A DNA stretch of 64,000 nucleotides from Actinokineospora bangkokensis (GTDB lineage: Bacteria; Actinomycetota; Actinomycetes; Mycobacteriales; Pseudonocardiaceae). Positions 3,040-61,287 of the stretch are shown one piece after another; within the stretch, counting starts at the first letter, position 1, and every line of letters starts with the position of its first letter. The position numbers were made by a program, and so were the translations under genes. The stretch spans positions 18,070 through 82,069 of the forward strand of contig NZ_MKQR01000026.1 in the NCBI RefSeq assembly GCF_001940455.1, given 5' to 3'. The notes under the pieces were generated by a model, which had not been told where the DNA came from, searched no databases, and was given only the letters and a program-made list of their open reading frames with translations.

Positions 3040-6000
3040 GTGTCCGAGAACCCTGCCCCCGGTCCCGGGTGGATCCGCCGGTTGTGGGCCGCCTGCTGGA
3101 AGCACAGGCGGCTGGTCCTGCTGTCCCTCGGCGCGTCCGCGGTGGGGGTGGGGTTCCAGGCCGCGGGTCCGCTGCTGGTGAAGTTCGTCGTCGACGACGC
3201 GGTGGCGGGTCGGACGTCACGGCTGGGCTGGCTGGTGGCCGCGCTGGTGGTCATGGAGCTGCTGACGTTCGCCAGCGCGTTCCTGCGCCGCTACCTCGGC
3301 GGCCGGTTGGCCCTGGACGTGCAGCACGACCTGCGCCAGGACGTGTTCAAGGCGGTGCAGCGGCTCGACGGCGGCAAGCAGGACGCGCTGCGCACCGGGC
3401 AGGTGGTGTCGCGCTCGATCACCGACCTGCAGCTGGTGCAGGGGCTGTTGATGATGGTGCCGCTGTCGGTGGGCACGGTGGTGTTCGCCGTGGCCGCGCT
3501 GGCGGCGATGGTGTACCTGTCGCCGCTGCTGACGGTGGTCGCGCTGGTGGTGACGCCGATCGTGGCGTACGCGGCGGTGCGGGCGCGCACGACGCTGTTC
3601 CCGGCCACCTGGTCGGCCCAGCAGCGGGCGGCGGACCTGGCCCAGCACGTCGAGGAGGCGGTGACCGGGGTCCGGGTGGTGAAGGGCTTCGGGCAGGAGG
3701 CGCGCGAGGTCGCCCGGTTGGAGGGGGCGGCGCGGTCGCTGTTCGGGGACCGGATGCGCGCGGCCCGGCTGACCTCGCGGCCCGCGGCGACGCTGGTGGC
3801 GATGCCCGCGGCGGGGCAGGTGGCGGTGCTGGCGCTGGGCGGGTACCTGGCGCTGAACGGGCAGGTGACGCTGGGGACGTTCCTGGCCTTCGCCGGGTAC
3901 GTGGCGAACCTGGTGGGGCCGACCCGGCTGCTGTCGGGGCTGCTGGTGAACGCGCAGCTGGCGCGGGCCGGGGTGGAGCGGGTGTACGAGCTGGTCGACT
4001 CGCAGCCGGACGTGGTGGACCGGCCGGGCGCGGTGGACGTGCCGGACGGGCCGGTGGCGGTGGAGCTGGACGGGATCTCCTTCGGCTACACCCGCAGCGA
4101 GCCGGTGCTCGACGGGGTCTCGCTGAGCGTGTCGCCGGGTGAGACGTTGGCGCTGGTGGGCACGGCCGGGTCGGGCAAGTCGACGGTGTCGCTGCTGCTG
4201 CCCCGGTTCTACGACGTGCAGTCGGGGGCGGTGCGGGTCGGCGGGGTGGACGTGCGCGAGCTGCGGCTGGCGTCGCTGCGGCACACCGTGGGGGTGGTGT
4301 TCGAGGAGGCGTTCCTGTTCTCCGACACCGTGCGGGCCAACATCGCCTACGGCGTGCCGGACGCCACCGACGAGCAGGTGGAGGCGGCGGCGCGGGCGGC
4401 GCAGGCGCACGAGTTCATCAGCGCGCTGCCGCAGGGCTACGCCACCGTGGTCGGCGAGCGCGGGTTGACCCTGTCCGGCGGGCAGCGGCAGCGGGTGGCG
4501 CTGGCCAGGGCGCTGCTGACCGACCCCAGGGTGCTGGTGCTCGACGACGCGACGTCGGCGGTGGACACCGCCACCGAGTCGGCCATCCACGACACGCTGC
4601 GCGCGGTCACCGCCACCCGCACCACGCTGCTGGTGGCGCACCGGCGCTCGACGCTGTCGCTGGCCGACCGGATCGCCGTGCTCGACGGCGGGCGGGTGGT
4701 CGACGTCGGCACGCACGCCGAGCTCCAGCAGCGGTGCGAGCTGTACCGGGCGCTGCTGGCCGGGCCGGACGAGGACATCGAGGACACCGCGACCCGGCAC
4801 GACCACGCCGACCTGGTGCCCGGCCCGGACGGCACCACGCCGCAGCTGTGGCCGCGGGAGCGGGAGCAGGAGCTGGGCGCGAACAGCACCCGGCAGCCCA
4901 CCGCGTCGATCGGCGGTCCGGGCGGGCACTCCGCGGCCCTGGGCGGGATGCCGCCGACGCCGGAGCTGCTGGCGCAGGTCGCCGCGCTGCCCCCGGTGCG
5001 CGACACCCCGCGGCTGCGCCCCGGTGAGGACCCGACCGCGCCCGACCCGGGGTTCCGGCTGGGCACGCTGGTCCGGCCCGCGCGCGGCGCGCTGGCGGTG
5101 GTGCTGGGGCTGGTGGTGCTCGACGCGGCCACCACGGCGGCGATGCCGTCGCTGGTGCGGGCCGGGGTGGACTCCGGGGTGGTGACCGCGAGCCTGACGA
5201 CGCTGTGGGTGGTCACCGCGATCGCGGCCGCGCTGGTGGTGGTCTCCTGGTTCACCACCGCGGTGAACACCGTGCTCACCGCCCGGGTGGGCGAGCGGCT
5301 GCTGTACGTGCTGCGGGTGCGCAGCTTCGCCCACCTCCAGCGGCTCGGGCTCGACTACTACGAGCGCGAGCTGGCCGGGCGGATCATGACCAGGATGACC
5401 ACCGACGTCGACGCGCTGTCGACGTTCCTGCAGACCGGGCTCACCTCGGCGGTGTCGAGCGTGCTGACGGTGGTGGCGGTGACGGTGGCGCTGCTGGTCA
5501 CGGACCTGTCGCTGGCGTGGGTGGCGCTGGCGGTGGTGCCGGTCGTCGCGGTGGCCACGGTGGTCTTCCAGCGGGTGTCGTCGCGGGCGTACGCCGAGGC
5601 CCGCGAGCGGGTCAGCGCGGTGAACGCGGACCTGCAGGAGAACGTGTCCGGGCTGCGGGTGGCGCAGGCGTTCACCCGGGAGGACCGGTCGGCGGCGGCG
5701 TTCGCGGCGCGCAGCGAGGCCTACCGGCGCAGCAGGCTGCGGGCGCAGCGGTACGTGGCGACGTACTTCCCGTTCATCACGATGCTGTCCGGGCTGGCGC
5801 AGGCGGGCGTGCTGGTGGTGGGGGCGCACGGGGTCGCGGCGGGCACCCTGCAACCGGGTGTGCTGCTGGCGTTCCTGCTGTACCTGGGGCTGTTCTTCTC
5901 CCCGCTGCAACAGCTGTCCAGCGTGTTCGACGGCTACCAGCAGGCGCGGGTGGGCCTGCAGCGGATCTCCGACCTGCTGCGCACCCCCACCTCGATCAAG

Positions 6001-6912
6001 GCGGCGGAGCACCCGGTGCCCGTGCCGGAGCGGTTGCGCGGGGCGGTCGAGCTGCGCGGGGTGAGCTTCACCTACCCGGGCACCGCCGAGCCCGCCGTGG
6101 CGGACCTGGACCTGAGCGTGGCGCCGGGGCAGACGGTGGCGCTGGTCGGGGCCACGGGCGCGGGCAAGTCGACGGTGGTGAAGCTGATCGCCCGGTTCTA
6201 CGACCCGACCGCGGGGGCGGTGCTCGTCGACGGGGTGGACCTGCGCGACTACGACCTCGACGGGTTCCACGGGCGGCTGGGCGTGGTGCCGCAGGAGGCG
6301 CACCTGTTCACCGGGGACATCGCCCGCAACGTCGCCTACGGCGACCCGGGTGCCGAGCCCGCGCGGGTGGAGGCCGCGGTGCGGGCGGTGGGGGCGCTGG
6401 AGATGGTGGCGTCGCTGCCCGAGGGGTTCCGGCAGCCGGTGGGCGAGCGCGGGCAGGGGCTCTCGGCGGGGCAGCGGCAGCTGGTGGCGCTGGCGCGGGC
6501 GGAGCTGGTGCGCCCGGACGTGCTGCTGCTCGACGAGGCCACCGCGGCGCTGGACCCGGCCACCGAGGGGCAGGTGCTCGCGGCCGCCGACCAGGTGGCC
6601 GCCGCGCGGACGACGTTCGTCGTCGCGCACCGGTTGGCGACCGCGGCCAGGGCGGACCTGATCGTGGTGCTCGACGGGGGCCGGATCGTCGAGCGCGGGT
6701 CGCACGCCGAGCTGATCGCGCTGGGCGGGCACTACGCCCGGCTGTGGGAGCTGGGCACCGCCGAGCCGCCCGCCCCCCGGCACTCCGCCGACGACAGAGC
6801 CGACACAGCCGACACCGACGACACCGCCAACGCTGGCGGCGACCACGACGGCGGCGGGGGTGGGCGACCGGACGTCGAGCGGATGGTGCCGTTCAGCGAC
6901 AGGCGCGGGTGA
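3040..6912 (+). CDS. Fused heterodimeric ABC exporter (TMD-NBD-TMD-NBD)
   Basis: About 1290 residues, twice the size of a half transporter. Two complete six-helix exporter halves are joined head to tail by an Arg/Pro/Gly-rich linker (about residues 600-680). NBD1 has Walker A GTAGSGKST, signature LSGGQRQR and H-loop AHRRS, but its Walker B reads VLVLDDATS, with Asp where the catalytic Glu should be. NBD2 has GATGAGKST, signature LSAGQRQL and Walker B LLLDEATA. This is the pattern of asymmetric exporters with one degenerate and one working ATP site. The C-terminus is a polar Asp/Thr/Gly-rich tail. It probably exports a lipid, drug or peptide; the substrate is unknown. The start at 3040 follows a leaderless promoter. 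Confidence 0.92.
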   Translation: MSENPAPGPGWIRRLWAACWKHRRLVLLSLGASAVGVGFQAAGPLLVKFVVDDAVAGRTSRLGWLVAALVVMELLTFASAFLRRYLGGRLALDVQHDLRQDVFKAVQRLDGGKQDALRTGQVVSRSITDLQLVQGLLMMVPLSVGTVVFAVAALAAMVYLSPLLTVVALVVTPIVAYAAVRARTTLFPATWSAQQRAADLAQHVEEAVTGVRVVKGFGQEAREVARLEGAARSLFGDRMRAARLTSRPAATLVAMPAAGQVAVLALGGYLALNGQVTLGTFLAFAGYVANLVGPTRLLSGLLVNAQLARAGVERVYELVDSQPDVVDRPGAVDVPDGPVAVELDGISFGYTRSEPVLDGVSLSVSPGETLALVGTAGSGKSTVSLLLPRFYDVQSGAVRVGGVDVRELRLASLRHTVGVVFEEAFLFSDTVRANIAYGVPDATDEQVEAAARAAQAHEFISALPQGYATVVGERGLTLSGGQRQRVALARALLTDPRVLVLDDATSAVDTATESAIHDTLRAVTATRTTLLVAHRRSTLSLADRIAVLDGGRVVDVGTHAELQQRCELYRALLAGPDEDIEDTATRHDHADLVPGPDGTTPQLWPREREQELGANSTRQPTASIGGPGGHSAALGGMPPTPELLAQVAALPPVRDTPRLRPGEDPTAPDPGFRLGTLVRPARGALAVVLGLVVLDAATTAAMPSLVRAGVDSGVVTASLTTLWVVTAIAAALVVVSWFTTAVNTVLTARVGERLLYVLRVRSFAHLQRLGLDYYERELAGRIMTRMTTDVDALSTFLQTGLTSAVSSVLTVVAVTVALLVTDLSLAWVALAVVPVVAVATVVFQRVSSRAYAEARERVSAVNADLQENVSGLRVAQAFTREDRSAAAFAARSEAYRRSRLRAQRYVATYFPFITMLSGLAQAGVLVVGAHGVAAGTLQPGVLLAFLLYLGLFFSPLQQLSSVFDGYQQARVGLQRISDLLRTPTSIKAAEHPVPVPERLRGAVELRGVSFTYPGTAEPAVADLDLSVAPGQTVALVGATGAGKSTVVKLIARFYDPTAGAVLVDGVDLRDYDLDGFHGRLGVVPQEAHLFTGDIARNVAYGDPGAEPARVEAAVRAVGALEMVASLPEGFRQPVGERGQGLSAGQRQLVALARAELVRPDVLLLDEATAALDPATEGQVLAAADQVAAARTTFVVAHRLATAARADLIVVLDGGRIVERGSHAELIALGGHYARLWELGTAEPPAPRHSADDRADTADTDDTANAGGDHDGGGGGRPDVERMVPFSDRRG

Positions 6913-11888: not shown

Positions 11889-12062
11889 CCCACACCCAGC
11901 CGAGTTGTCCACAGCCACCTCGCCGGGGTCGAGTTCCGTCGCCCCCCACCGGTAACGTTGAAAACAGGGGTCCCCTTGCCCGGGCTACCCCCGCGCCAGC
12001 ATGGGCCGTAGTTGCACGAGAAGGCGCCCACCCACCGAAGCCGAACCCGGACAGCGGGCCCT
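11889..12062 (+). repeat. Long-repeat unit A, copy 1 (contains a DnaA box)
   Basis: This stretch is nearly identical, in reverse complement, to 61034-61210. A core at about 11951-12001 matches the other copy base for base over roughly 50 bases (it contains GTAACGTTGAAAACAGG). An exact TTGTCCACA lies at 11905-11913. It runs straight into the palindromic element at 12063, so unit A plus the palindrome form one composite repeat of about 320 bp. Confidence 0.85.
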
Positions 12063-12208
12063 GCCCGGTTGGGTGGATTCGCTTGGTCGGGGGAGGCGAT
12101 CATGTGCTACCCAACGGGACGGGCGGGCGTCTTTCCAGCCCGCCTTTTCCCGCCCGCAGCACATGATCGCCGTAGGGCCCCCGACCAAGCGGATCCACCC
12201 AACCGGGC
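12063..12208 (+). repeat. 145-bp interspersed inverted-repeat element, copy 1
   Basis: A near-perfect palindrome. Outer arms run from GCCCGGTTGGGTGG to CCACCCAACCGGGC. Inner arms are GGCGATCATGTGCT and AGCACATGATCGCC. The centre is GC-rich and asymmetric (GGCGGGC and GCCCGCC around a T-rich loop). It lies between convergent genes: the DUF6104 gene (+) and the aldo-keto reductase gene (-). The same core recurs at 21679, 45141, 52029 and 60886. Confidence 0.9.
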
Positions 12209-14466: not shown

Positions 14467-15741
14467 TCACGGCCACAGCTCCCCCAGCGCGTCGGACAGC
14501 GCCCGGCCCACGTCGCCCAGGACGTGCGCGCCGCCGCGGACGACCTCGCGGCCCGCGACCACCACGGTGTCCACATCGGACGCGGTGGCGGCGAGGACGA
14601 GCTGGTCGGGCAGGGCGCCCGCGGTGCGCGGGGTGTCGGTGCGCACGGCGACCAGGTCGGCGGGGGCGCCGGGGACGAGGCCGCCGGGCCAGCCGAGCGA
14701 GGCGTAGCCCGCGGTGGTCATGGCCGTGGTGAGCTGGGCGGGGGTGAGCCTGCCGCGGTGGCCGGTGCGGAAGCGCTCGCCGTGCTCCAGGGCCCTGGCC
14801 TCGGCGAACGGGTCGACCACGGCGTGCTGGTCGCTGCCGATGGCCAGGGCCGCGCCCGCGTCGAGCAGGTCGCGGGCGGGTCCGTGGCCGTCGGCCAGGT
14901 CGCCCTCGGTGGTGGGGCAGAAGCAGGCGGTGGAGCCCGCGAGCAGGCGCACGTCGGCGTCGGTGAGGTGGGTGGCGTGCACGGCGGTGGTGCGCGGGCC
15001 GAGCGCGCCGAGGTCGTGCAGCAGCCGGGTGGGGGTGCGGCCGTGGCGGGCCAGGCAGGCGGCGTTCTCGGCGGGCTGCTCGGACAGGTGCACGTGCAGG
15101 GGGCCGTCGACCGCGGCGACGACGACCGGGATCTGGTCGTGCGGCACGGCGCGGACGGAGTGGATGGCGGCGCCGATGCGGGTGGTCGGGGTCTGCTCCA
15201 GAGCTGACACGCGCTCGGCCCAGGCCTCGGCGGTGCCGTCGGAGAAGCGCTGCTGCACCGGGTCGAGGGGCTGGTCGAAGCCGCCCGCGAGGTAGCAGGT
15301 GTCGAGCAGGGTGAGCCGGATGCCCGCGTCCCGCGCCGCGGCGATCAGGGCGTGGCCCATGGCGTTCGGGTCGTCGTGGGGGCCGTGGTGCAGGTAGTGG
15401 AACTCGCCCACCGCGGTGTAGCCGGCGAGCACCATCTCGGCGTAGGCGGCGCGGGCGAGGCGGTGGTAGGAGTCGGGGTCGAGGCGGGCGGCGAGGTCGT
15501 ACATGCGCTCGCGCCACGTCCAGAAGGTGCCGCCGTCGCCGTGGGTGCGCCCGCGCAGCGCCCGGTGGAAGGCGTGCGAGTGGGCGTTGGCGATGCCGGG
15601 GAACACCACGCCCGGCAGCCGGGTCCCGGCCGGTTCGTCCGGTGTGGACACCGCGGTGATGGTGCCGCCCGCGGTGTCGATGCGCACGCCCGCGGTGAGG
15701 CCGCCGGGCAGCCAGGCGTGGTCGGCCCAGTAGGTCGTCAC
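14467..15741 (-). CDS. hutF: Formimidoylglutamate deiminase
   Basis: A 424-residue amidohydrolase that converts N-formimidoyl-L-glutamate to N-formyl-L-glutamate and ammonia. It marks the two-step HutF-type branch of the histidine pathway instead of direct formiminoglutamase. Motifs: [13 protein letters not shown] (metal His), HVHLSEQ, HATHL and IGSDQHA. The GTG start overlaps the stop of the upstream M20 gene (GTGA), so the two are translationally coupled. hutI follows 20 bp after its stop. I see no frameshift. Confidence 0.93.
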
Positions 15742-16919
15742 CGGGCCAGGTGCTCCAGGACCCGGGCGAGCGCGGCGGCGCCCTCGGCGCAGTCGGCGGG
15801 CTCGGCGTGCTCCTCCGGCGCGTGGCTGACCCCGGTGGGGTTGCGCACGAACAGCATGGCGGTCGGCCGGTGCGCGGCGAGGACGCCCGCGTCGTGGCCC
15901 GCGCCGGTGGCCAGGACGGGCACGTCGCCGAGCGTGGCGTTCAGGTCGTCAGCCAACACCCGGTCGAACACGACCGTGTCGCCGTAGGACTCCTCGGTCA
16001 CCTGGAGCGAGCACCCCTCGTCGGCCGCGGCGGCCTGCGCGGCGGCGGTGACGTCCGCGACGACCTCCCGCGTGCGCGGCGTGCCGTCCGCCCGGGCGTC
16101 GAGCCAGAGGTCGACCGACGAGGCGATGACGTTGGTGCCGCCCGGGGTGGGCAGGATGCGCCCGACCGTGGCGCGGGCCCCGCCGGTCGCGGCCCGGCGC
16201 GCGGCGAGGACGGTGGCCGCGGCGGCGACCACCGGGTCGCGCCGGTCACCCATCAGCGTGGCGCCCGCGTGGTTGCCCTCGCCGGTGAACCGGAACCGCC
16301 ACCGCCCGTGCGCCAGGATCGACGACGCGAGCCCCACCGGCGCGCCGAGGTCGACCAGCCCGCGCCCCTGCTCCACGTGCAGCTCCACGAACACCCCGAT
16401 CCGCCGCAGCGCCGCGTCGTCGCGCCCGAGCCTGGCGGGGTCCAGCCCGGCCGAGCGCACCGCGTCGGCCAACGTCGTGCCGTCCGGGTCGGTCAGCGCC
16501 CGCGCCCGGTCGGCGTCGATCGCCCCGGTCATCAACCGCGACCCCAGGCACGCACTGCCGAACCTGCCGCCCTCCTCCTCGACGAACACCACCAGCGCGA
16601 GCGGTGTGCGGGGCATGAAACCCTTGTCCCGCAGGAGGTCCACGGCCTGCAGGGCGGCCACGACCCCGAGCGGCCCGTCGAACGCCCCGCCCCCGGGCAC
16701 CGAGTCGAGGTGGCTGCCGGTGACGACGGCCCCGTCGCCCGGCTCCCCCCACCAGGCCCAGATGTTGCCGTTGCGGTCCGCCTCGACCCCCAACCCGCGG
16801 CGCCGCGCCTCGCCCTCGAACCACTCCCGCAGCTCCGCGTCGACCCGCGTGAACCCGTGCCGCGAGAACCCCCCGCGCCGGTCCACCCCGACCCCCGCGA
16901 TGTCGTCAAGCCCCGTCAC
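15738..16919 (-). CDS. M20-family amidohydrolase (allantoate amidohydrolase-like), probably the last enzyme of histidine degradation here
   Basis: A 393-residue zinc hydrolase of the AllC/N-carbamoyl-amino-acid hydrolase group. Metal ligands are visible: [32 protein letters not shown] and GAGHDAG. By name such genes are annotated allantoate amidohydrolase. Here the gene sits between hutU and hutF, overlaps hutF by four bases, and no hutG is nearby. I infer that it releases formate or ammonia from the formylglutamate branch, as proposed for the same gene order in Streptomyces. The start at 16919 (GTG) follows a TACGCT hexamer by 13 bases and lies at the edge of a tandem-repeat array, which must supply its promoter. 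Confidence 0.85.
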
Positions 16920-16920: not shown

Positions 16921-17500
16921 GCCCAACCCCCCAGCGTAGAACGTCCCGACTGGCGCACCGAGTTCTTGTCCACAGGCCCGGGGGTTCCCCCGATTTCCAC
17001 TCTGCCAGAGGGGACCGACGCTTCCGGCGCGCGCGCAGCGAACCATCCACAGCCCGCACACCGGCCCTCCCAGGCCAACCCACCAGCCTAGAGCCGACCG
17101 CTCCAGCGTGGCGAACTCCATCCACAGCCCCTGGGGACCCCCCGATTTCCACTTTGCCATGAGGGAACGACAGTTCCGATCGGCGTCGCCGCGAACCATC
17201 CACAGCCCGCGCACGGGCGCAAACAGGCCAACCCACCAGCGTAGAGCGGACTACGCCAACGTGGCGTCCCCCATCCACAGCCCCCAGGGAACCCCCGAAT
17301 TCCACTCTGCCACAGGGGAACGACAGTTCTCGGGCGAGCGGCGTCGGTTGTCCACAGGGGACGAGAGGCGAACCTGCCAGGATAGGGGCGTTCGCGCGAC
17401 CATGGGTGGACGTGTCCACAGGCGCCGGGGGACCCCCGATTTCCACGCTACCGCAAGGGGTGGTGGGAGCGGGAGTCGTGGCGCGGGGGTGTGGACAGGT
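16921..17500 (-). repeat. Four-unit degenerate tandem repeat between hutU and the M20 gene
   Basis: Four copies of a unit of about 141-153 bp. The shared landmark GATTTCCAC/GAATTCCAC starts at 16992, 17144, 17297 and 17438. Each unit holds a GGGG(n)CCCCC mini-hairpin just before that landmark, a (T/A)TCCACAG sequence and, read on the minus strand, a TANNCT hexamer (TACGCT, TAGGCT, TACGCT, TATCCT). Two units carry an exact DnaA box TTGTCCACA (16966 and 17348). The last unit on the minus strand supplies the 5' region of the M20 gene. No coding sequence is supported. Confidence 0.8.
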
Positions 17501-17514: not shown

Positions 17515-19176
17515 TCATTGGCGGGACATGGGGACGGGGATGTCGTGGGCGGTGGCGACTTCGGTGGCCCGGTCGTAGCCGGCGTCGGCGTGGCGGAGGA
17601 CGCCCATGGTGGGGTCGTTGGTGAGGACGCGTTCGAGCTTCTGGGCGGCGAGGGGGGTGCCGTCGGCGACGGTGACCTGGCCCGCGTGGATGCTGCGGCC
17701 GATGCCGACGCCGCCGCCGTGGTGGAGGGAGACCCAGGTGGCGCCGCTGGCGGTGTTGACCAGGGCGTTGAGCAGGGGCCAGTCGGCGATGGCGTCGGAG
17801 CCGTCGGCCATCGCCTCGGTCTCGCGGTAGGGGCTGGCGACCGAGCCGCAGTCGAGGTGGTCGCGGCCGATGGCGACGGGGGCGGCCAGCTCGCCGGAGG
17901 CGACCAGCTCGTTGAAGCGCAGGCCCGCGAGGTGGCGCTCGCCCTGGCCGAGCCAGCAGATGCGGGCGGGCAGGCCCTGGAAGGCGACGCGCTCGCCCGC
18001 GAGGCGGATCCAGCGGGCCAGGGGCTCGTTGTCCGGGAAGAGCTCCAGCACGGCCCGGTCGGTGGCGGCGATGTCGGCGGGGTCGCCGGACAGGGCGGCC
18101 CAGCGGAACGGGCCCCGGCCCTCGCAGAACAGGGGGCGGATGTAGGCGGGCACGAAGCCGGGGAAGTCGAAGGCCCGGTCGTAGCCCGCCAGCTGGGCCT
18201 CGCCGCGCAGGGAGTTGCCGTAGTCGAAGACCTCCGCGCCCGCGTCGAGGAAGCCGACCATGGCCTCGACGTGCTCGGCCATCGAGGCGCGGGCGCGGTC
18301 GGTGAACTCGTCGGGCTTGTCGCGGGCGTAGTCGCGCCAGTCGGCCAGGTCGACCCCGCGCGGCAGGTAGGACAGCGGGTCGTGGGCGGAGGTCTGGTCG
18401 GTGACGACGTCGACCTCCACGCCCCGGCGCAGCAGCTCGGGCAGGACCTCGGCGGCGTTGCCGATCACCCCCACCGACAGCGGGCGCCCGGCCGCGCGGG
18501 CGGCGGTGACCCTGGCGACGGCGTCGTCGAGGGAGTCGGCCAGCTCGTCGAGGTAGCGGGTCTGCACGCGGCGGCGGGCGCGGTCGGGGTCGACCTCCAC
18601 GCACAGCGCGACGCCCTCGTTCATGGTGACGGCCAGCGGCTGCGCGCCGCCCATGCCGCCCAGGCCCGCGGTGACGGTGAGGGTGCCGCGCAGCGTCCCG
18701 CCGAAGCGCTTGGCGGCGACGGCGGCGAAGGTCTCGTAGGTGCCCTGCAGGATGCCCTGGGTGCCGATGTAGATCCACGACCCGGCGGTCATCTGCCCGT
18801 ACATGGTCAGGCCCTGGGCCTCCAGCCTGCGGAACTCCGGCCAGGTGGCCCAGTCCCCGACCAGGTTGGAGTTGGCGATGAGCACCCGCGGCGCCCACTC
18901 GTGGGTGCGCAGGACGCCCACCGGCTTGCCCGACTGCACCAGCAGGGTCTCGTCCTCGCGCAGGTCGGTCAGCTCGCGGGTGATGGCCTCGAAGCTGGCC
19001 CAGTCGCGGGCGGCGCGGCCGGTGCCGCCGTAGACGACCAGGTCGTCGGGGCGCTCGGCCACCTCGGGGTCGAGGTTGTTGTGGAACATGCGCAGCGCGG
19101 CCTCGGTCTGCCAGCCGCGGGCGGTCAGGGCGGTGCCGCGGGCGGCGCGCACGGGGCGCGGGCCGGGGGTGGTCAC
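17515..19176 (-). CDS. hutU: Urocanate hydratase
   Basis: A 553-residue NAD-containing enzyme that adds water to urocanate to give imidazolonepropionate, the second step of histidine degradation. Recognisable family segments: [39 protein letters not shown] and [10 protein letters not shown], and the active-site region [16 protein letters not shown] with the expected Cys. Length matches HutU (about 550). The GTG at 19176 overlaps the hutH stop by four bases. After the stop comes the 600-bp repeat array, so hutHU and the downstream hut genes may be separate transcripts. Confidence 0.97.
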
Positions 19177-21573: not shown

Positions 21574-21678
21574 CCCACCCCACCGCACGCTCCCACCCAA
21601 CACTCCCCCCGGCTCGCTCTCATTCGCTTTCACCCCAACGCCACCACCTACGCACCAGGAAGCCCGGCTACGCCACTG

Positions 21679-21822
21679 CTCGATGCGGTGGTCTTGTTTG
21701 GCCGGGGATGGCGATCATGTGCTACCCACGACCGGGGGGTGGGGCCGCAGGCCTCACCTTTTCCCCACCCCGAGCACATGATCGCCGCAGGGGCCCCGGC
21801 CAAACAGGACCACCGCATCGAG
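21679..21822. repeat. 145-bp interspersed inverted-repeat element, copy 2
   Basis: The most diverged copy. Outer arms begin CTCGATGCGGTGGTC and end GACCACCGCATCGAG with one mismatch. Inner arms GGCGATCATGTGCT and AGCACATGATCGCC are unchanged. The central stem is different (GGGGTGGGG with CCCCACCCC) but still pairs. It lies between convergent genes, iclR (+) and the binding-protein gene (-). Flanking CCCGGCTACGCC matches the flank of copy 4 in reverse. Confidence 0.88.
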
Positions 21823-21902
21823 CCAGCCCACGAACGACCGGGCTCTACCAACGCCGAAGCCGAAGGCGAGGCGACACCCCCGCACACCCCGAGAAACACC
21901 AA

Positions 21903-44582: not shown

Positions 44583-45059
44583 GTGGCAGGACGAGGAACC
44601 CCGGCGACGGCGCTGCTGGCCAAGCGCCAGGTCGCGCACACCGTGCACACCTACGACCACGACCCGCGCTCGGAGTCCTACGGGCTCGAAGCCGCCGAGG
44701 CGATGGGGGTGGCGCCCGAGCGGGTGTTCAAGACCCTCGTCGCGGACGTGGACGGCGCGCTGGTGGTGGGGGTGGTGCCGGTGTCGCGGCAGCTGGACCT
44801 CAAGGCGCTGGCGGCCGCGGTCGGCGGGAAGAAGGCGCGGATGGCGGAGGTCGCCGCGGCCGAGCGCAGCTCGGGGTACGTGGCCGGGGGGATCTCGCCG
44901 CTGGGGCAGAAGAAGGCGCTGCGGACGGTGGTGGACTCCTCGGCGCTGGGGTTCGAGACGGTGTTCTGCTCCGGGGGGCGGCGGGGGTTGGAGGTGGAGC
45001 TGGCGCCGGGGGACTTGGTGGCGCTGACGCGGGGGGTGGCTGCGGCTATCGCTGTGTGA
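44583..45059 (+). CDS. ybaK: Cys-tRNA(Pro) deacylase (YbaK/EbsC family)
   Basis: A 158-residue editing enzyme that removes cysteine mischarged on tRNA-Pro. Markers: the early [10 protein letters not shown] and the catalytic-site Lys/Gly pattern [10 protein letters not shown]; near the C-terminus [14 protein letters not shown]. The GTG start follows TAGTGT by eight bases and lacks a ribosome site, so it is likely leaderless. It is divergent from sigR and convergent with rsgA, with palindrome copy 3 between. Confidence 0.9.
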
Positions 45060-45103
45060 GGGGGTGTGGGGGTGGCTCGCCTGCGGCTTCGGGGGTGAGG
45101 GGC

Positions 45104-45120
45104 ATCGGGCTTCGCCCGAT
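45104..45120. repeat. Small hairpin repeated beside palindrome copies 3 and 4
   Basis: ATCGGGC-TTC-GCCCGAT here and at 51992-52008. It belongs to a longer flank shared by these two copies (CTCGCCTGCGGCTTCGGGG before, GATTTCCGG after). Confidence 0.6.
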
Positions 45121-45140
45121 TTCCGGTTGTTGAGGGCGGG

Positions 45141-45285
45141 CTCGATGCGGTGGTTGCGCTTGGTCGGGGCCCCTACGGCGATCATGTGCTGCGGGCGGGG
45201 AAAAGGCGGGCTGAAAAGACGCCCGCCCGTCCCGTTGGGTAGCACATGATCGCCTCCCCCGACCAAGCACAACCACCCCATCGAG
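45141..45285. repeat. 145-bp interspersed inverted-repeat element, copy 3
   Basis: Reverse orientation to copy 1. Outer arms CTCGATGCGGTGGTTG and CAACCACCCCATCGAG pair with one mismatch here; inner arms GCGATCATGTGCT and AGCACATGATCGC are intact. It lies between convergent ybaK (82 bp after its stop) and rsgA (87 bp after its stop). The 3' flank (CGTAGCCGGG(G/C)CGCCTGCTGC) is shared with copy 4. Confidence 0.9.
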
Positions 45286-45371
45286 CACCTGCGTAGCCGG
45301 GGCGCCTGCTGCTTGGGGGGTTGCGCTGGGAAAGGGGGTGGGAGGTGGGGACGGGTTCGTGGAACGCGGGG

Positions 45372-46406
45372 CTAGTCGGGCTTGGGGGCGGAGTCGTCGA
45401 CGCCTGCTTTGGAGGACAGGAGGCGGCGGAGGGAGGTGAGGCGGCCGGGGGTGGCCTGGCCGGTGGTGACGGCCTCGTCGAGCATGCAGCCGGGGTCGGC
45501 GGGGGGGCCGAGGTGGCCGCAGCCGGAGGGGCACTCCTCCGCGAGGGCGACGAACTCCTCGAAGGCGGCGACGATGTCGGTGGGGGTGATGTGGGCGAGG
45601 CCGAAGCTGCGGATGCCGGGGGTGTCGACGATCCAGCCGCCGTCGGGGAGGGGGAGGGCGACGGCGCTGGTGGAGGTGTGGCGGCCCTTGCCGACGGCGC
45701 TGACGGCGCCGGTGGCGCGGTCGGCGGCGGGGACGAGGCGGTTGACCAGGGTGGACTTGCCGACGCCGGAGTGGCCGACCATGGCCGAGACCTCGTCGGT
45801 GATCAGGGCGCGCAGCTCGGCGGGTTCCTGGTCGCGGCGGGTGATGACGACCGGGAGGTCCAGCTCGGCGTACTGGGCCAGCAGCTCGGCGGGGTCGGCG
45901 AGGTCGGACTTGGTGAGGCAGAGGGTGGGCTGGAGGCCACCGGCGTAGGCGGCGACCAGGCAGCGGTCGATGAAGCCGGTGCGCGGGGGCGGGTCGGCCA
46001 GGGCGCAGACGATGAGCAGGCGCTGGGCGTTGGCCACCACGACGCGCTCGAAGGCGTCGGTGTCGTCGGCGGTGCGGCGCAGGACGCTGGTGCGCTCGGC
46101 CACGCGGACGATCCTGGCCAGGGTGTCCGGGGCGCCGGTGGTGTCGCCGACCAGCTCCACGGTGTCCCCGATGACCACCGGGGTGCGGCCCAGCTCGCGG
46201 GCGCGCATGGCCACCACCAGCCGGTCGGCGTCGCCGTCGACCGCGCAGGTCCAGCGGCCCCGGTCCTTGCCCACCACCATCGCGCCGACCGCGTCGGCGT
46301 GCTCGGGGCGGCGCTTGCTGCGGGGGCGGGAGCCCTTCCCGGGGCGGACCCGCACGTCCGACTCGTCCAGCCTGCTCCAGTCGCCGCGGCGGGGCACCTC
46401 AGGCAC
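45372..46406 (-). CDS. rsgA: Ribosome small-subunit GTPase RsgA
   Basis: A 344-residue circularly permuted GTPase that helps mature the 30S subunit. Motif order shows the permutation: G4 TKSD (about residue 165), then G1 GHSGVGKST, then G3 DTPGIRSFG. The N-terminal OB-fold contains [12 protein letters not shown]-terminal zinc knuckle is visible as [16 protein letters not shown] with a nearby Cys/His set. Start GTG 46406 overlaps the aroA stop by eight bases, so the two are coupled. Palindrome copy 3 follows the stop. Confidence 0.95.
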
Positions 46407-47667
46407 CCGCGCCGAGCAGCGCCGACCACATCGCCGGGAAGTCCGGCATCGTCTTGGCCGTGGTGCCGATGTCGTCCACCGACACCCCCGGCACGACCAG
46501 GCCGACGATGGCGCCCGCGGTGGCCATCCGGTGGTCGGCGTAGGCGTGCCAGAGCCCGCCGCGCAGCGGCGCCGGGCGGATCACCAGGCCGTCCTCGGTC
46601 TCCTCGGCGCGCCCGCCCAGGGCGGTCAGCTCGGCCACCAGGGCGGCGAGCCGGTCGGTCTCGTGGCCGCGCAGGTGGGCGATGCCGCGCAGGCGCGACG
46701 GGGAGTCCGCGAGGGCGGCCAGCGCCGCCACCGTCGGGGTCAGCTCCCCCACCTCGCGCAGGTCGACGTCGACCCCGCGCAGCCGCTCCGGGCCGCGCGC
46801 GGTCAGCCCCCCCGCGGTCAGCTCCACCTCGGCGCCCATCAGCTCCAGGATGCCCCGGAAGTGGTCGCCGGGCTGGGTGGTGGCGGCGGGCCAGCCGGTG
46901 ACGGTGACCTCCCCGCCGGTGGCGGCCGCGGCGGCCAGGAACGGGGTGGCGTTGGACAGGTCCGGCTCCACCACCCAGTCCACCGGGGCGATCGGGCCCG
47001 GCTCGACCCGCCAGGTGTCCGGCTCGGAGTCGTCGACCACCACGCCCGCGGTGCGCAGCATGGCCACGGTCATGTCGATGTGCGGCATCGACGGCACCGG
47101 CGCGCCGTCGTGGCGCACGGTCAACCCGCGCTCGTAGGCGGCGCCGGAGAGCAGCAGGCCGGAGACGAACTGCGAGGACGCCGACGCGTCGATCGTCACC
47201 GCGCCGCCGGGCACCCCGCCGCGGCCCTCGACGGTGAACGGCAGCGCGTCGCCGGTGACCTCCGCGCCCAGGGCGCGCAGCGCGCCGAGCACGGTGCCCA
47301 TCGGCCGCTCCCTGGCGCGCGGGTCGCCGTCGAAGTCCACCCGGCCCTCGGCCAGCACCGCCATCGGCGGCACGAACCGCATCACCGTGCCCGCCAGCCC
47401 GCAGTCCACCGCGGCGGGGCCAGCGAGCGGGCCGTGCGCGCCGGTGCGGATGGTGGTGCCCTCGACCTCCACGGGCACGCCCAGCGCCCGCAGCGCGGCC
47501 ACCATGAGGTCCGCGTCGCGGCTGCGCAGCGCGCCGGTGGTGGTGGTCGGGCGCCCGCTCAGCGCGGCCAGCACCAGCGCCCGGTTGGTGATCGACTTCG
47601 ACCCGGGGACCGTGGTGGTCCCCTGGACGGGGGCGGCGGCGAGCGGCGCGGACCAGGGCTGCGGCAT
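46399..47667 (-). CDS. aroA: 3-phosphoshikimate 1-carboxyvinyltransferase (EPSP synthase)
   Basis: A 422-residue enzyme of aromatic amino acid synthesis that joins shikimate 3-phosphate and phosphoenolpyruvate. Motifs: [15 protein letters not shown] (substrate Lys), [36 protein letters not shown], and HYADHRMAT near the end (here AYADHRMAT). It has the ATG at 47667; longer starts run into non-family sequence. The stop overlaps rsgA. It is divergent from the SRAP gene; a paired GTGCCACCAT repeat lies in the 123-bp gap. Confidence 0.96.
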
Positions 47668-47728
47668 GGCCCGATCCTCCCGCACCGGGGCGGGGGGCGG
47701 GTGACCGGCTCGCTGCCCGCCGCCGTTC

Positions 47729-47760
47729 GTGCCACCATCGGTGGTCCGGCGTGCCACCAT
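47729..47760. promoter_or_regulatory. Paired GTGCCACCAT repeat upstream of the SRAP gene
   Basis: The 10-mer occurs at 47729-47738 and 47751-47760, 22 bp start to start (about two helix turns), within the aroA/SRAP divergent gap. CCACC-at-cGGTGG gives a further small dyad. Possible operator. Confidence 0.4.
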
Positions 47761-47790
47761 GCGTGCACCCGAGGCGGAGGAGGACCGACC

Positions 47791-48537
47791 GTGTGCGGCA
47801 GGTACGCGTCGTCGAAGGACCCCGCGGCCCTGGCGGCCGAGTTCGACGCGGCGGACGCCACCGGCGACGCCGAGCGGGCGCCGGACTACAACGTCGCCCC
47901 GACCAAGGACGTGGTCACCGTCGTGCAGCGCCACCCGCGCGACGACGAGGGCAACCCCGACACCTCCACCACCGAGCGCACCCTGCGGGTGATGAAGTGG
48001 GGCCTGGTGCCCGCGTGGGCCAAGGACGCCTCCGGCGGCGCCAAGCTGATCAACGCCCGGTCGGAGAGCGCGGCGCAGAAGCCGACGTTCAAGAAGCCGC
48101 TGGCCCAGCGCCGCTGCATCCTGCCCGCCGACGGCTGGTACGAGTGGCGCCGCGACGGCAAGCACAAGCAGGCCTTCTTCACCACCGACCCGGACGGGCG
48201 CAGCCTGGCCATGGCCGGGCTGTGGACGACCTGGCACGACAAGGCCGACCCGGACGCGGGCGTGCTCATCACCTGCGCGGTGCTCACCACCGCCGCGGTG
48301 GGGCCGCTGGCCGAGGTGCACGACCGGATGCCGCTGCTGCTGGCGCCCTCGGCGTGGGCGGACTGGCTCGACCCCGACCGCGCCGACGTCGCCGACCTGC
48401 TCGCGCCGCCGTCCGAGGAGCTGGTGGGGGCGCTGGAGGTGCGCCCGGTGTCGTCGATGGTGAACAACGTGCGCAACAACGGCGCCGACCTGCTGCGCCG
48501 GGTGGACCCCGACGGCGCCGAGCTGCCCGGCGCGTGA
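47791..48537 (+). CDS. SRAP-domain abasic-site processing protein (HMCES/YedK family)
   Basis: A 248-residue protein that forms a stable thiazolidine crosslink with abasic sites in single-stranded DNA through Cys2 exposed after Met removal. The N-terminus is MCGRYASS, as required. Other active-site parts: [23 protein letters not shown] and HDRMPLLL. Length is normal. The GTG follows GGAGGAGG. Its stop overlaps the next GTG by four bases. Confidence 0.92.
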
Positions 48538-49148
48538 GCACCGCCGAGGTCGACACCCCGCACGGCCCGGCCAGGGTCGAGCTGCACTGCGCGGCGGAGG
48601 GCCGCGCGGCGCTGCTGCTCGGGCACGGCGCGGGCGGCGGGATCAGCGCCCCCGACCTGGTCGCAGCCACCCGCGGCGCGGTGGAGGTGGGCGTGCACGT
48701 GGCGCTGGTGGAGCAGCCCTACCGGGTGGCCGGGCGGCGCGCGCCCGCCCCGGCCAAGCAGCTCGACGCGGCGTGGCTGGCGGTGGCCGCGGACCTGGCC
48801 GCGACCCGGTTCGCCGGGATGCCGCTGGTGTTCGGCGGCCGCTCGTCCGGGGCCAGGGTCGCCTGCCGCACCTCGGCCGAGGGCGAGGCGGTGGCGGTGC
48901 TGTGCCTGGCGTTCCCGGTGCACCCGCCGGGCAAGCCGGAGAAGAGCAGGCTGCCGGAGCTGGACGCGGTCGCGGTGCCGACCCTGGTGGTGCAGGGCGA
49001 GTCCGACCCGTTCGGGATGCCCGCGCCCGCCGGGCACCGCGAGGTCGTCGCGCTGCCGGGTGACCACTCGCTCAAGCGGGAGGCCCTGGCGCTGACCTGG
49101 GCCGTGTCGGAGTGGCTCGAACGGGTGCTGCGCCCCCTGGAGGACTGA
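48534..49148 (+). CDS. Alpha/beta-hydrolase (KANL3/Tex30-like)
   Basis: A 204-residue hydrolase. The nucleophile elbow is [10 protein letters not shown], the oxyanion region [10 protein letters not shown], the acid Asp lies in [11 protein letters not shown] and the His in LPGDHSLK. The family resembles Tex30/KANL3 and dienelactone hydrolases; its substrate is unknown. The start overlaps the SRAP stop, so it is co-translated with the DNA-repair protein, which may or may not mean shared function. Confidence 0.85.
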
Positions 49149-49279
49149 GGCCCGCGCGGGCCCGGTGGTAACGCTGAGCGATGCTTTACCGAAGCGTTAA
49201 CCACAGGGGCGGAACGGTGCGGCCCCGGGTGCGTCAGAACCGGTGACACCAGAGAAGACACTCGCTGAGGGGTTGTTCC

Positions 49280-50119
49280 ATGCGCAAGACCAAGCTGATG
49301 GTGGCGGGAGCGCTGCTGGCCACCGCGACCCTGACGGCGTGCAACTCCACGCAGTCCGGCTCCGCCGCGCCGGTGGGCGGGCAGTCCACCAGCTCCAGCG
49401 CCGCGCCGTCCGGCTTCGACACGCTCAAGTCGCTCACCGACGCCGTCGCGCAGAAGTCGGCCTCGGCCAAGAGCGCGCACGTGAAGATGTCCTCGTCGAT
49501 CGGCTCCACCTCGTTCACCGGTGAGGGCGACTTCGACTTCGCCGCCGAGAACACCGCGATGCAGATGTCGATGGAGATCCCGGGCGCGGGCGCCGTGGAG
49601 ATGATCCTGGTCGACCAGACCATCTACATGAAGCTGCCCGCCAACCTGGTCCCCTCGGACAAGCCGTGGATCAAGTTCAGCCAGGACGGCACCGACCCGG
49701 TGTCCCAGCAGCTGGCGGGCACCATGGACCAGCTCAAGAGCTCCGACCCGCGCGAGGCCCTGCAGAAGATCGTCAACGCCGGTGAGATCACCTCGAAGGA
49801 GGAGACCGAGCTCAACGGCGAGAAGGCCACCCACTACTCGATCACCGTCGACGTGACCAAGCTGACCGAGGAGTCCGGCTACGACGCCGAGACCCGCAAG
49901 GCCATGCAGGACGCGGGGATCAAGGAGTTCCCGATGGAGGTCTGGGTCAACGGCGACGCCCTGCCCCTGCGCGTGGTGACCACCGTCCCGCTCCCGGCCG
50001 CCGCCCAGGCGACCGCGGGCACGTCCGAGGTCAAGGTCACCGCCGACTACACCGACTGGGGCAAGTCGGTGGACGTCCAGGCGCCGGACCCCTCGCAGGT
50101 CGGCACCCTGGGCGGCTGA
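49280..50119 (+). CDS. Lipoprotein (LppX/LprG-like or related)
   Basis: A 279-residue lipoprotein. The signal peptide ends at the lipobox LTAC (Cys about residue 21), followed by a Ser/Ala-rich linker. The remaining 230 residues have the strand-rich pattern of LppX/LprG-type lipid-binding lipoproteins: AHVKMSSSIGS, then EMILVDQTIYMKLP and EELNGEKATHYSITVDV. I am not sure of the exact family; ligand unknown. It should sit outside the membrane. The ATG has GAGGGG upstream. An imperfect inverted repeat (about 49165-49204) lies in the preceding 131-bp gap. Confidence 0.8.
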   Translation: MRKTKLMVAGALLATATLTACNSTQSGSAAPVGGQSTSSSAAPSGFDTLKSLTDAVAQKSASAKSAHVKMSSSIGSTSFTGEGDFDFAAENTAMQMSMEIPGAGAVEMILVDQTIYMKLPANLVPSDKPWIKFSQDGTDPVSQQLAGTMDQLKSSDPREALQKIVNAGEITSKEETELNGEKATHYSITVDVTKLTEESGYDAETRKAMQDAGIKEFPMEVWVNGDALPLRVVTTVPLPAAAQATAGTSEVKVTADYTDWGKSVDVQAPDPSQVGTLGG

Positions 50120-50154
50120 CACCCCACAGGCTCCACGCCGAAGCGCAGCACCCA

Positions 50155-50193
50155 GCGGAGGCCCCGCAGGCACCCAGCCTGTGGGGCCTCCGC
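50155..50193. terminator. Terminator between the lipoprotein gene and pruA
   Basis: An 11-bp stem GCGGAGGCCCC/GGGGCCTCCGC with an inner CAGG/CCTG pairing, between two convergent genes. Confidence 0.7.
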
Positions 50194-50223
50194 CCTGTCC
50201 GGCGCCGTTCCGGCGGCCGCCGG

Positions 50224-51852
<1,629 letters not shown>

Positions 51853-51934
51853 CGGGGTCGCCTCCGTGGTCGTCTGGGGGGCTTGTGGCCGGGTGACGAA
51901 CATGGTGGCACGGGCGCTGGGATCGGGCCGGGTG

Positions 51935-51943
51935 TTGTCCACA
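51935..51943 (+). other. DnaA-box nonamer upstream of pruA
   Basis: Exact TTGTCCACA (context GTTGTCCACAGGG) between pruA and palindrome copy 4. Confidence 0.5.
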
Positions 51944-52028
51944 GGGGGGTGCTGGGGGTGCCTCGCCTGCGGCTTCGGGGTTGGGGCGGGCATCGGGCTT
52001 CGCCCGATTTCCGGCCGTTGGGGGGCGG

Positions 52029-52173
52029 CTCGATGCGGTGGTTGCGCTTGGTCGGGGCCCCTACGGCGATCATGCGCTGCGGGCGGGGAAAAGGCGGGCT
52101 GAAAAGACGCCCGCCCGTCCCGTTGGGTAGCACATGATCGCCTCCCCCGACCAAGCACAACCACCCCATCGAG
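52029..52173. repeat. 145-bp interspersed inverted-repeat element, copy 4
   Basis: Nearly identical to copy 3, including more than 70 bp of left flank and about 40 bp of right flank. One inner-arm base differs (ATCATGCGCT instead of ATCATGTGCT), breaking a pair. It lies between DUF6912 (-, upstream, 113 bp past its stop) and pruA (-), the only copy type with tandem neighbours apart from copy 5. Confidence 0.9.
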
Positions 52174-52285
52174 CAGGGGCGTAGCCGGGCCGCCTGCTGC
52201 GAGGGGGGTGCGCTGGGGAAAAGCGGGAGGGGCTGGGTGGGGTGGAGCAGGGTGGGGTGGAGCTGGGTGGGGTGGAGCTGAGTGG

Positions 52286-52789
52286 CTAGAGGAGTTCCAG
52301 GAGGAAGGGGAGTTCCTGGACGGCGTACCAGGCGAGTTCGTGGTCTTCGGCGTCGCCGAGGGTGAACTCGGCGTCGGGGTCGCCGAGGTCGGCGGCGTCG
52401 ATGGCGGCGGCGGCGGCGCGGACGGCGGGTTCGGCGTCCTCGGTGTCGAAGTGGATGGCGGCGACGGCCTTGAGGGGGACGGGGCCGGAGAGCTTGACGA
52501 CCGCGTGGTCCAGGTCGGGGCGCAGCTCGGCGCCGTCGACGTCGGCGGAGACGACCGCGCGGCGCATGAGGGTGTCCGGGTCCTTGTCGGCCTCGGCGTT
52601 GAGCAGGCGCAGGGAGGCGCGGGCGGCGTCGAGCATGGCGGCGTACTCCAGCTCCTCGTCGCCGCCGGTGGCGTAGGACTCGCGCAGGGCGGGGGTGAGG
52701 GCGAAGGCCGTCCCGCCGAGGGCGGACAGCTCGCCTTCGGTGTTCAGGGTGCGCAGCATCGTCACCGTCGCCGGTAGGTAGACCCTCAC
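52286..52789 (-). CDS. DUF6912 family protein
   Basis: A 167-residue protein of an actinobacterial family of unknown function: MRVYLPATVTML at the N-terminus, an Ala/Leu-rich helical middle (EYAAMLDAARASLRLL), and HELAWYAVQELPFLLELL at the C-terminus. Soluble, acidic. The GTG is four bases after the WS/DGAT stop, so they share a transcript. No active-site motif seen. Confidence 0.8.
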   Translation of the reverse strand: MRVYLPATVTMLRTLNTEGELSALGGTAFALTPALRESYATGGDEELEYAAMLDAARASLRLLNAEADKDPDTLMRRAVVSADVDGAELRPDLDHAVVKLSGPVPLKAVAAIHFDTEDAEPAVRAAAAAIDAADLGDPDAEFTLGDAEDHELAWYAVQELPFLLELL

Positions 52790-52793
52790 TCGA

Positions 52794-54203: not shown

Positions 54204-54273
54204 GCCCCCGATCCTGGCACACCGGCGCCGGTCGGACCGGGGGCGTGGCCGGTGTCATGCCAGACTGCACGGC

Positions 54274-55035
54274 GTGCCGCAGGAACCCTCCCCCAAGGAC
54301 CGCTTCGTCACCGTCTACGGGCGCAAGCCCGTGCTGGAGGCGCTGGCCGACGCCCGCCTGTCGGTGGACAAGGTGGTGCTCGCCGACAACGCCAGGGGCG
54401 CGGCGGCCCGGGAGATCCTGGACGCGGCCCGCGACCGCGGGGTGCCGGTGCAGCGCGCCACCCCGCACCGGGTGAAGGTGCTCGCGGGCAACGGCAAGCA
54501 GGACCAGGGCGTGCTGGCCGACGTGGTCGCCCCCCGGATGCGGCTGCTGGCCGACGCGCTGGCGGCCCGCTCGGCGCCCCGCTCGGTGCTGCTGCTCGAC
54601 GGGGTCACCACCCCGGCGAACGTCGGCATGATCCTGCGCACCGCCACCGCCGCGGGCATCGGCGGGATCGTGGTGCCCCGGCGCGGGGTGGCCTCGCTGG
54701 ACCCGCTGGTGGTGAAGGCCTCGGCCGGGGTGGCGTTCACCGCGCCGGTGCTGCGCTGCGGCACCGCCGCCGAGGCCGCCGAGGAGCTGCGCGGGGCCGG
54801 GTTCGAGCTGTTCGCCATGGACGCGGGCGCCCGCCGCTCGGTGTTCGAGGTCGAGCTGCCCGAGCGGGTCGCCTTCGTGCTCGGCAGCGAGACGGCCGGG
54901 GTGGGCGAGGACGTGCGCCGGTTCGTCCGCCGCTGGGTGTCGATCCCGATGGCGGGTGGCGTGGAGTCGCTGAACGTGGCCAGCGCGGCCGCCGTCCTCT
55001 GCTTCGAGCTGGTGCGGCGCGGGGCGGCCGGGTAG
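54274..55035 (+). CDS. TrmH/SpoU-family RNA 2'-O-methyltransferase (RlmB-like)
   Basis: A 253-residue rRNA/tRNA methyltransferase. An N-terminal substrate-binding domain (VTVYGRKPVLEALAD, about residues 12-75) precedes the SPOUT domain with motif 1 LLLDGVTTPANVGMILRTA, motif 2 VLGSETAGV and motif 3 IPMAGGVESLNVASAAAVL, which makes the SAM knot. It probably methylates 23S rRNA. The GTG start follows CAGACT by seven bases, suggesting a leaderless mRNA. It is divergent from WS/DGAT. The 136-bp gap after it shows only a ribosome site for the next gene. Confidence 0.88.
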   Translation: MPQEPSPKDRFVTVYGRKPVLEALADARLSVDKVVLADNARGAAAREILDAARDRGVPVQRATPHRVKVLAGNGKQDQGVLADVVAPRMRLLADALAARSAPRSVLLLDGVTTPANVGMILRTATAAGIGGIVVPRRGVASLDPLVVKASAGVAFTAPVLRCGTAAEAAEELRGAGFELFAMDAGARRSVFEVELPERVAFVLGSETAGVGEDVRRFVRRWVSIPMAGGVESLNVASAAAVLCFELVRRGAAG

Positions 55036-55648: not shown

Positions 55649-55688
55649 GCCGGGGACAGGTGGTGCGGGACTGGTGCGGGATATGCGC

Positions 55689-55740: not shown

Positions 55741-58707
<2,967 letters not shown>

Positions 58708-60885: not shown

Positions 60886-61033
60886 GGCCCGGTTGGGTGG
60901 ATCCGCTTGGTCGGGGCCCCTACGGCGATCATGTGCTGCGGGCGGGGAAAAGGCGGGCTGAAAAGACGCCCGCCCGTCCCGTTGGGTAGCACATGATCGC
61001 CTCCCCCGACCAAGCGGATCCACCCAACCGGGC
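60886..61033. repeat. 145-bp interspersed inverted-repeat element, copy 5
   Basis: Reverse complement of copy 1 over its full length, with arms GCCCGGTTGGGTGG and CCACCCAACCGGGC and the perfect inner arms. It lies downstream of lpqB (-) and upstream of comF (-). Confidence 0.92.
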
Positions 61034-61210
61034 AGTGCCCGCTGTCCGGGCTCGGCTTGTGGGGGTGGTCGCCTTGGTGCCTTCTCCTGCCACTTTGACC
61101 CAGGCTGGCGCGGGGGTAGCCCGGGCAAGGGGACCCCTGTTTTCAACGTTACCGGCGGGGGGCGACGAAACTCGACCACCGCGAAAGGGCTGTGGACAAC
61201 TCGGCTGGGT
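61034..61210 (-). repeat. Long-repeat unit A, copy 2 (contains a DnaA box)
   Basis: Reverse complement of 11889-12062 with few differences; about 50 consecutive bases near 61098-61150 are identical. The DnaA box is at 61191-61199 on the minus strand. It is contiguous with palindrome copy 5. The rest of the lpqB downstream gap (61211-61287) shows nothing. Confidence 0.85.
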
Positions 61211-61287
61211 GGTGTGCCCCGGGCTCGTTGGGGGGGTGGGCCTCTTCGGGTGGGAACACCCGCCAGGTCCCGTTGTGAGGGGAGGGG

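Follow-up and report, generated by a model that had tools for sequence, protein, structure and literature searches.

Five palindromes in a 64-kb stretch of the Actinokineospora bangkokensis genome (the whole stretch that was analysed, hereafter 'the window') belong to a real, structure-conserved and apparently mobile repeat family of the Pseudonocardiaceae. In the reading we favour, to which we assign a probability of roughly 0.6, these are mobile, non-coding hairpin repeats of conserved structure that are copied by a trans-acting enzyme and settle at gene ends. An enzyme acting in trans would copy an element with a core of ~150 nt—the whole unit spanning ~250 nt or more—to new positions between genes. 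This enzyme, or a selected cellular function, would read a folded single strand (RNA or ssDNA) and not a fixed sequence, so that the arms could drift while staying paired and each lineage would acquire an arm sequence of its own. Copies would settle or survive mostly by gene 3' ends, chiefly between convergent genes; a hairpin at a gene end could terminate transcription or stabilise 3' ends harmlessly.

A preliminary description of the window had reported five copies of an intergenic, 145-bp inverted repeat. All five were confirmed at their reported positions (Table 1), with GGCGATCATGTGCT (14 nt) forming both inner arms in every copy, except for one altered base in one arm of copy 4. The described gene context was borne out as well: using genes predicted with a composition-based caller and no annotation, copies 1–3 fall between convergent and copies 4–5 between codirectional genes, with none inside a predicted gene. 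Measured from outer arm to outer arm, the window copies span 146–147 nt. The repeated unit exceeds the described 145 bp: class B copies match across ~250 bp, and ~325 bp are common to copies 1 and 5. Allowing up to two mismatches, the window contains 13 inner-arm matches as compared to 0.47 expected, a number reached in none of 100 shuffles, and ten of these 13 are arms of the five palindromes. Copy 1 folds with −122.5 kcal/mol as RNA (z −13.7 relative to shuffles) and with −72.3 as DNA (z −13.4). Taken together, the number of inner-arm matches and the z-scores of the fold exclude chance.

Table 1 Coordinates of the palindrome copies and associated features in the window.
Feature	Position	Strand	Details
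Copy 1, loop class A	12063..12208	+	Outer arms 12063-12092 / 12179-12208
Copy 1, inner arms	12095-12108 / 12158-12171		3' internal-loop side GTAGGGC at 12172-12178
Copy 1, extended left flank	11893..12028	+	90% like the inversely oriented copy 5 flank; contains the TTGTCCACAG motif
Copy 2, loop class B	21678..21823	+	Inner arms 21710-21723 / 21773-21786
Copy 3, loop class A	45140..45286	-	Inner arms 45177-45190 / 45241-45254
Copy 4, loop class A	52028..52174	-	Inner arms 52065-52078 (one altered base) / 52129-52142
Copy 5, loop class A	60887..61033	-	Inner arms 60924-60937 / 60988-61001
Copy 5, extended left flank	61076..61211	-	Matches 11893-12028

The palindrome extends well beyond the window. 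Within the A. bangkokensis genome (7,453,713 nt in 32 scaffolds, the largest of 931,456 nt), the exact inner-arm pattern returned 45 palindromes, while the reversed-pattern control returned none. A covariance model built from 42 copies retrieved further ones, and the loci fetched after this search comprised at least 113 distinct copies, so that the original count of five holds for the window but not for the genome. These 113 copies are distributed over both strands (60 and 53) and fall into loop classes A (57), B (35) and C (20), with one unassigned. The inner stem of class C carries a compensated change, reading GAGCT/AGCTC instead of GTGCT/AGCAC. The TTGTCCACAG motif, or a near variant of it, is present at −190 to −204 in 15 of the 57 class A copies; it was rejected as a target motif and, given this location, probably belongs to a longer form of the element. 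Searches against Rfam 15 returned no match above the gathering score across 82,157 bases, and a single match across 18,877 bases (E 0.59) that is located outside the element, leaving none credible for the element itself; no known RNA family in this resource corresponds to the repeat. As a separate observation, copy density varies between scaffolds (chi-square p about 6e-7 across seven scaffolds): C28 (804 kb) contains 29 copies and C17 (383 kb) 15, compared with three in C9 (815 kb) and one in C13 (312 kb).

The copies have a common architecture, in which an outer stem of 30 bp is separated by an asymmetric internal loop from an inner stem of 11–16 bp, and the loop bears its own hairpin. On the best-scoring strand, a 30-nt left outer arm ending in GGGG is followed by a 2-nt side, a 14-nt inner arm, the loop with its hairpin, the second inner arm, a 7-nt side ending in AGGGG and a right outer arm that begins with CCCC. 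Among the A. bangkokensis copies, two-sided changes occur at 17 of the 44 pairs, pairing is kept in 98.9% of cells, and 188 cells carry changes on both sides (60.5 in shuffles). One measure of covariation runs counter to this: further pair types number 28, as compared to 34.5 in shuffles, which we count against our reading. For the comparison across genomes, 113 model matches were reduced to the best one per place, that is, 58 places in 15 genomes (A. terrae is perhaps a sixteenth), and the other 55, which had lower scores at those places, were discarded. Two-sided changes that keep the pairing were found at 24 of the 30 outer and at all 14 inner pairs. The alignment was fitted to the structure and is biased in its favour; 99.0% of outer and 94.6% of inner cells are paired, compared with 33–49% after sliding, a control made on this same alignment.

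To these two-sided changes, the outer stems add a bias in mismatch type. Across 231 elements, in whose detection G-U and A-C mismatches were equally permitted, we counted 58 G-U, 23 A-C and 29 other distinct genome-position events. The excess of G-U over A-C points to one strand folding, as RNA or ssDNA, and would be consistent with recognition of a single strand. For A. bangkokensis alone the two types are even (nine each), again to be counted against our reading, and A. iranica alone has five G-U and eight A-C events. Template switching between arms is known for quasi-palindromes, and a process of this kind, which could act on any long palindrome, might generate two-sided changes as a mutational by-product that keeps the pairing without any selection on the fold. 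We consider this highly improbable: arm repair should perfect the palindrome, yet in all genomes that were inspected the internal loop has kept its asymmetry, its 3' side usually being of the AGGGG type, and most typed loops, though not those of G003, contain a CTTTT-like bulge. Nor does template switching predict an excess of G-U over A-C.

An alternative pairing inside the loop, where one strand has a choice of two partners, was seen in 46 of 50 unique loops in A. bangkokensis (14.4 in shuffles), in none of ten in G003, and in seven of 18 in A. diospyrosa (5.8 in shuffles). With its excess missing in G003 and slight in A. diospyrosa, this pairing is given no weight here.

We then turn to the distribution of the fold. 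The exact inner arms occur in none of 99 other genomes, whereas the structure model (R1) matches 15 of the 16 genus genomes, A. bangkokensis included; the family came to light only with this structure-aware search. R1 counts were limited to 150 scored candidates, and one palindrome can match on both strands; they are therefore not to be equated with copy numbers. The outer-arm pattern was found, among the matches listed, in A. iranica, A. diospyrosa, A. terrae, A. pegani and Actinokineospora sp. NBRC 105648. The commonest inner arm is GTGAAGGAAGATCCC in A. iranica, ACGGCACCCGTAGCG in A. diospyrosa and AGAAAAGAGGCGC in NBRC 105648, while GGCGATCATGTG is common to A. pegani, G003 and A. bangkokensis, and several genomes harbor more than one inner-arm type. 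A signature pattern that matches 109 times in A. bangkokensis (vs four times in the control) is rare or absent (0 to 6 matches) in G001, G004, G007, G008, G009, G010 and G011 and, as these congeners bear the element, undercounts it. One other congener, G012, has no R1 match, an absence that weighs against our reading and at the same time makes this a useful negative strain for phyletic profiling.

Outside the genus, the signature pattern is prominent only in G142 (33 matches vs 0 in the control; at most four in others). Within the Pseudonocardiaceae, R1 matches were obtained in 14 of 150 genomes, representing six of 46 genera, a tally that includes G103 (L347), which was later dropped since its hairpin is of a different kind. 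Five further genera of this family match R1, with scores lower than in Actinokineospora; inspection of the folds revealed the architecture in g8, g17, g20, g31 and, from a separate search, g23, and g4 was dropped. Beyond the Pseudonocardiaceae, there was no match in a class-wide sample of 147 other genomes (with stricter filters and 20 candidates scored per genome). Plasmids and phages (distant blastn with 341 bases) and IMG/VR (one outer-arm pattern) likewise returned none.

With respect to genes, the copies are placed far from randomly. In A. bangkokensis, 76 of the 113 copies lie between convergent and 31 between codirectional genes—together 107 of the 108 that can be placed—and a single one between divergent genes, five being at contig edges. 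The background comprised 310 gene pairs (42 convergent, 222 codirectional, 46 divergent) from a 400-kb sample of 20 stretches, taken at round coordinates and containing no element by the signature pattern, which may for this reason not represent the element-rich parts of the chromosome. Convergent spacers are enriched (76/107, p about 1e-8) even when all convergent and half of the codirectional spacer are treated as equally safe. In six relatives (A. iranica, A. diospyrosa, NBRC 105648, A. pegani, A. terrae and G003), 58 of 120 copies are convergent, 32 codirectional and five divergent, and 25 are at edges. That copies avoid coding regions, as first described for the window, holds on this larger scale: none of the 113 A. 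bangkokensis copies overlaps a predicted gene, and only two of the 120 in relatives do so by more than 30 nt, instead of being scattered at random in genes. In G136, a member of another genus, nine of 18 copies are convergent, eight codirectional and one divergent. The 12 best-matching loci from other genera (two convergent, seven codirectional, one divergent, two at edges) show no convergent bias, a further result counted against our reading. Among copies between codirectional genes, 21 of 31 in A. bangkokensis and 16 of 32 in relatives have the orientation of those genes. This is no clear bias, which again speaks against our reading and lends no support to a strand-specific role in the gene upstream.

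Copies also occur in close pairs. All 13 pairs within 600 bp are in opposite orientation (11 '−+', two '+−', no tandem; p 0.0002), and 12 of them combine different classes. This opposite-orientation pairing is BIME-like.

Comparison with orthologous sites argues for mobility. The genes flanking copy 4 are kept in eight relatives, none of whose regions has an R1 match, and the six orthologous regions of the copy 5 site likewise have none, with G003, G007 and G013 aligning cleanly on both sides. Absence from conserved neighbourhoods would reflect insertion rather than repeated loss. The copy 3 site is occupied in G007 (A. pegani) and has no match in the regions fetched from G013 and G002; in G003 it coincides with two contig ends, each carrying part of an element, and short-read assemblies may accordingly break at copies. 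The occupants of this site belong to own-genome subfamilies, as do those of two more shared sites, a pattern that is compatible both with repeated insertion and with homogenisation of resident copies. We recognised no duplication of the target site at copies 4 and 5, where the relatives' spacers are too diverged to fix the ends and insertion ends are resolved to within tens of bases only.

In the G003 and G007 orthologues of window positions 51940 and 60770 (L289, L295, L297, L298), that is, at sites without copies 4 and 5, we observed ATCCACAGG, a DnaA-box-like motif, near the stop codon of the neighbour gene. The window has TTGTCCACAGG in its place.

The strong convergent bias, the constrained fold and the own-genome subfamilies at the copy 3 and two further shared sites—the last as concerted evolution would give—might all stem from a selected cis-acting element, namely a bidirectional terminator or 3'-end stabiliser at convergent genes that is homogenised by gene conversion and does not transpose. 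This appears quite unlikely to us in light of the copy 4 region being empty in all eight relatives, of the congener without any match, and of signature counts that vary widely among congeners. A simple terminator scan of 44900-61400 returned five sites as compared to 3.2 in shuffles, which we also count against this explanation, although the test is weak.

Transposition could alternatively be that of an ordinary MITE. In this case, the outer arms would be terminal inverted repeats belonging to an IS of the cut-and-paste (DDE) type, whose transposase spreads the copies, and the location at gene ends would result only from the removal of harmful insertions. Like MITEs of this type, the repeats are non-autonomous, short, dispersed, outside predicted genes and equipped with inverted arms; the near-identical copies at dispersed positions and the orthologous sites without an element fit this explanation, and the size is within the 70–300 bp given for MITEs in the available part of PMC3733652. 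However, searches that were not exhaustive have so far revealed neither a parent IS nor a target duplication; one class B query gave 93 matches in A. bangkokensis, none of them seen to bear a transposase. Moreover, covariation is as strong in the inner stem as at the ends, something that terminal repeats do not need, and the convergent enrichment goes beyond the safe-spacer model described above. We therefore hold an ordinary MITE to be unlikely. The closest in size among known repeats are ERIC-like repeats (ERIC, 127 bp) and YPAL/RU-2 (167–168 bp), enterobacterial MITE-like elements with TA ends and TA duplications at their insertions, as far as PMC2759123 was available. They share with the present family the near size, a strong stem-loop, the intergenic location and a transfer mechanism that is not elucidated; neither TA ends nor TA duplications were recognised here, the comparison being one of descriptions and not of sequences.

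A relation to REP elements was likewise considered. According to the accessible part of PMC3733652, REP units measure 20–40 bp, form GTAG and CGTC superfamilies, and are palindromic, intergenic and of high copy number, lying between codirectional and convergent genes, in opposite pairs and with G-T pairs in their stems; the words Actinobacteria, Streptomyces and Pseudonocardi are absent from the main text of that paper. The Actinokineospora repeat is similarly palindromic, intergenic, abundant and arranged in opposite pairs, with G-T pairs in the stem. In contrast to REP/BIME, its unit of ~150 nt is about four times as large, and it is without a fixed GTAG or CGTC tag, with GTAG, GCAG, ATAG and others found internally, adjacent to the inner stem. 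A RAYT (Y1 HUH transposase) mobilising a REP/BIME family would account for the palindromic, intergenic, high-copy elements in opposite-orientation pairs, but the unit length and the missing GTAG tag argue against it, as does the search for the enzyme. The RAYT named in the preliminary description was not found: the Y1/RAYT profile (PF01797) had no match in A. bangkokensis and matched two of 16 genus genomes, despite matches in five of 14 control genomes. We accordingly rejected RAYT/Y1 as the mobiliser and, barring a highly divergent Y1 enzyme or one located in an assembly gap of A. bangkokensis, give this explanation next to no credence. The behaviour thus proved REP/BIME- or MITE-like, as had been proposed (in dispersal, empty orthologous sites, opposite pairs and gene ends), while membership in either family is not supported; the repeats work like REP or MITE elements, yet fail or leave open the tests that define them.

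Two other types of repeat bear comparison. RNA is encoded by repeated palindromes in the case of naRNA4 and the REP-encoded nucleoid RNAs, as covered in the available part of PMC10589994; the repeat described here likewise consists of repeated palindromes, is known as a DNA sequence and has no Rfam match. Our family was also set beside integrons. Their attC sites are long imperfect hairpins that are recognised by shape and unpaired bases. By general description, the elements seem similar in forming a long imperfect hairpin; unlike attC sites, they are dispersed on both strands.

The preliminary description knew of no account of this element, and our literature search found none either; with subscription literature mostly outside that search, absence from print is not proven. 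Actinokineospora is not named in the available part of PMC13155455, a hairpin survey of 118,019 genomes.

As to the mobiliser, a bacterial SINE-like route through a reverse transcriptase (PF00078) was rejected, with no match in A. bangkokensis and matches in three of the 16 genus genomes. The idea of a DUF222-HNH protein arose from Pfam searches of the genes next to the hairpin in other genera. It was rejected for the genus itself, where A. bangkokensis has none, two of 16 genomes match and no R1 match lies near the genus's three DUF222 loci. A tblastn search with three DUF222 queries on loci of about 3 or 6 kb revealed DUF222 to adjoin the hairpin at all six matched loci, from four genomes (G190, G022, G045, G034) and three genera, and at none of 26 fetched loci from four others (G136, 18 of 18 fetched; G109, two of four; G160, one of two; G142, five of five). 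Judging from this adjacency, DUF222-HNH in other genera might be a possible pointer to the mobiliser. The genes in question are DUF222-HNH (13E12-type) genes, some of them interrupted, beside hairpins L340, L344, L345, L346, L377 and L378. Overall, our reading of a hairpin family copied in trans is weakened by the lack of matches to Y1 transposase, reverse transcriptase and DUF222 in A. bangkokensis and by the fact that no target duplication was recognised.

A bolder version, which we put forward tentatively as possible rather than probable, is that of a shape-defined mobile element, in which a folded strand would combine recurrent unpaired nucleotides (the AGGGG-type side, a GCTA-type loop entry and the CTTTT-like bulge) with freely drifting stems and be moved by a mobiliser of a class not known to move hairpins. 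The family represents a large class of hairpin repeats located between the genes of Actinomycetes; our literature search found no REP-type description of them. One fold with differing arm sequences amounts to a natural mutagenesis experiment that can show which nucleotides the mobiliser or the cell reads. It also offers a tractable system for finding a non-RAYT mobiliser and for asking whether repeats at convergent ends act as insulators.

Two further features of the window deserve mention. At 16969-17481, between predicted genes 15738-16919 and 17515-19176, there are four imperfect tandem repeats with a spacing of about 141–153 bp, each starting with TCCACAG followed by a GGGG/CCCC dyad and TTCCAC; as far as seen, they bear no relation to the palindrome family. 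One long predicted gene at 3040-6912 consists of two halves that are related to each other at a distance of 1989 bp (repeats D8, D10, D13 and D18) and, on the basis of a motif, is probably a fused ABC-transporter pair.
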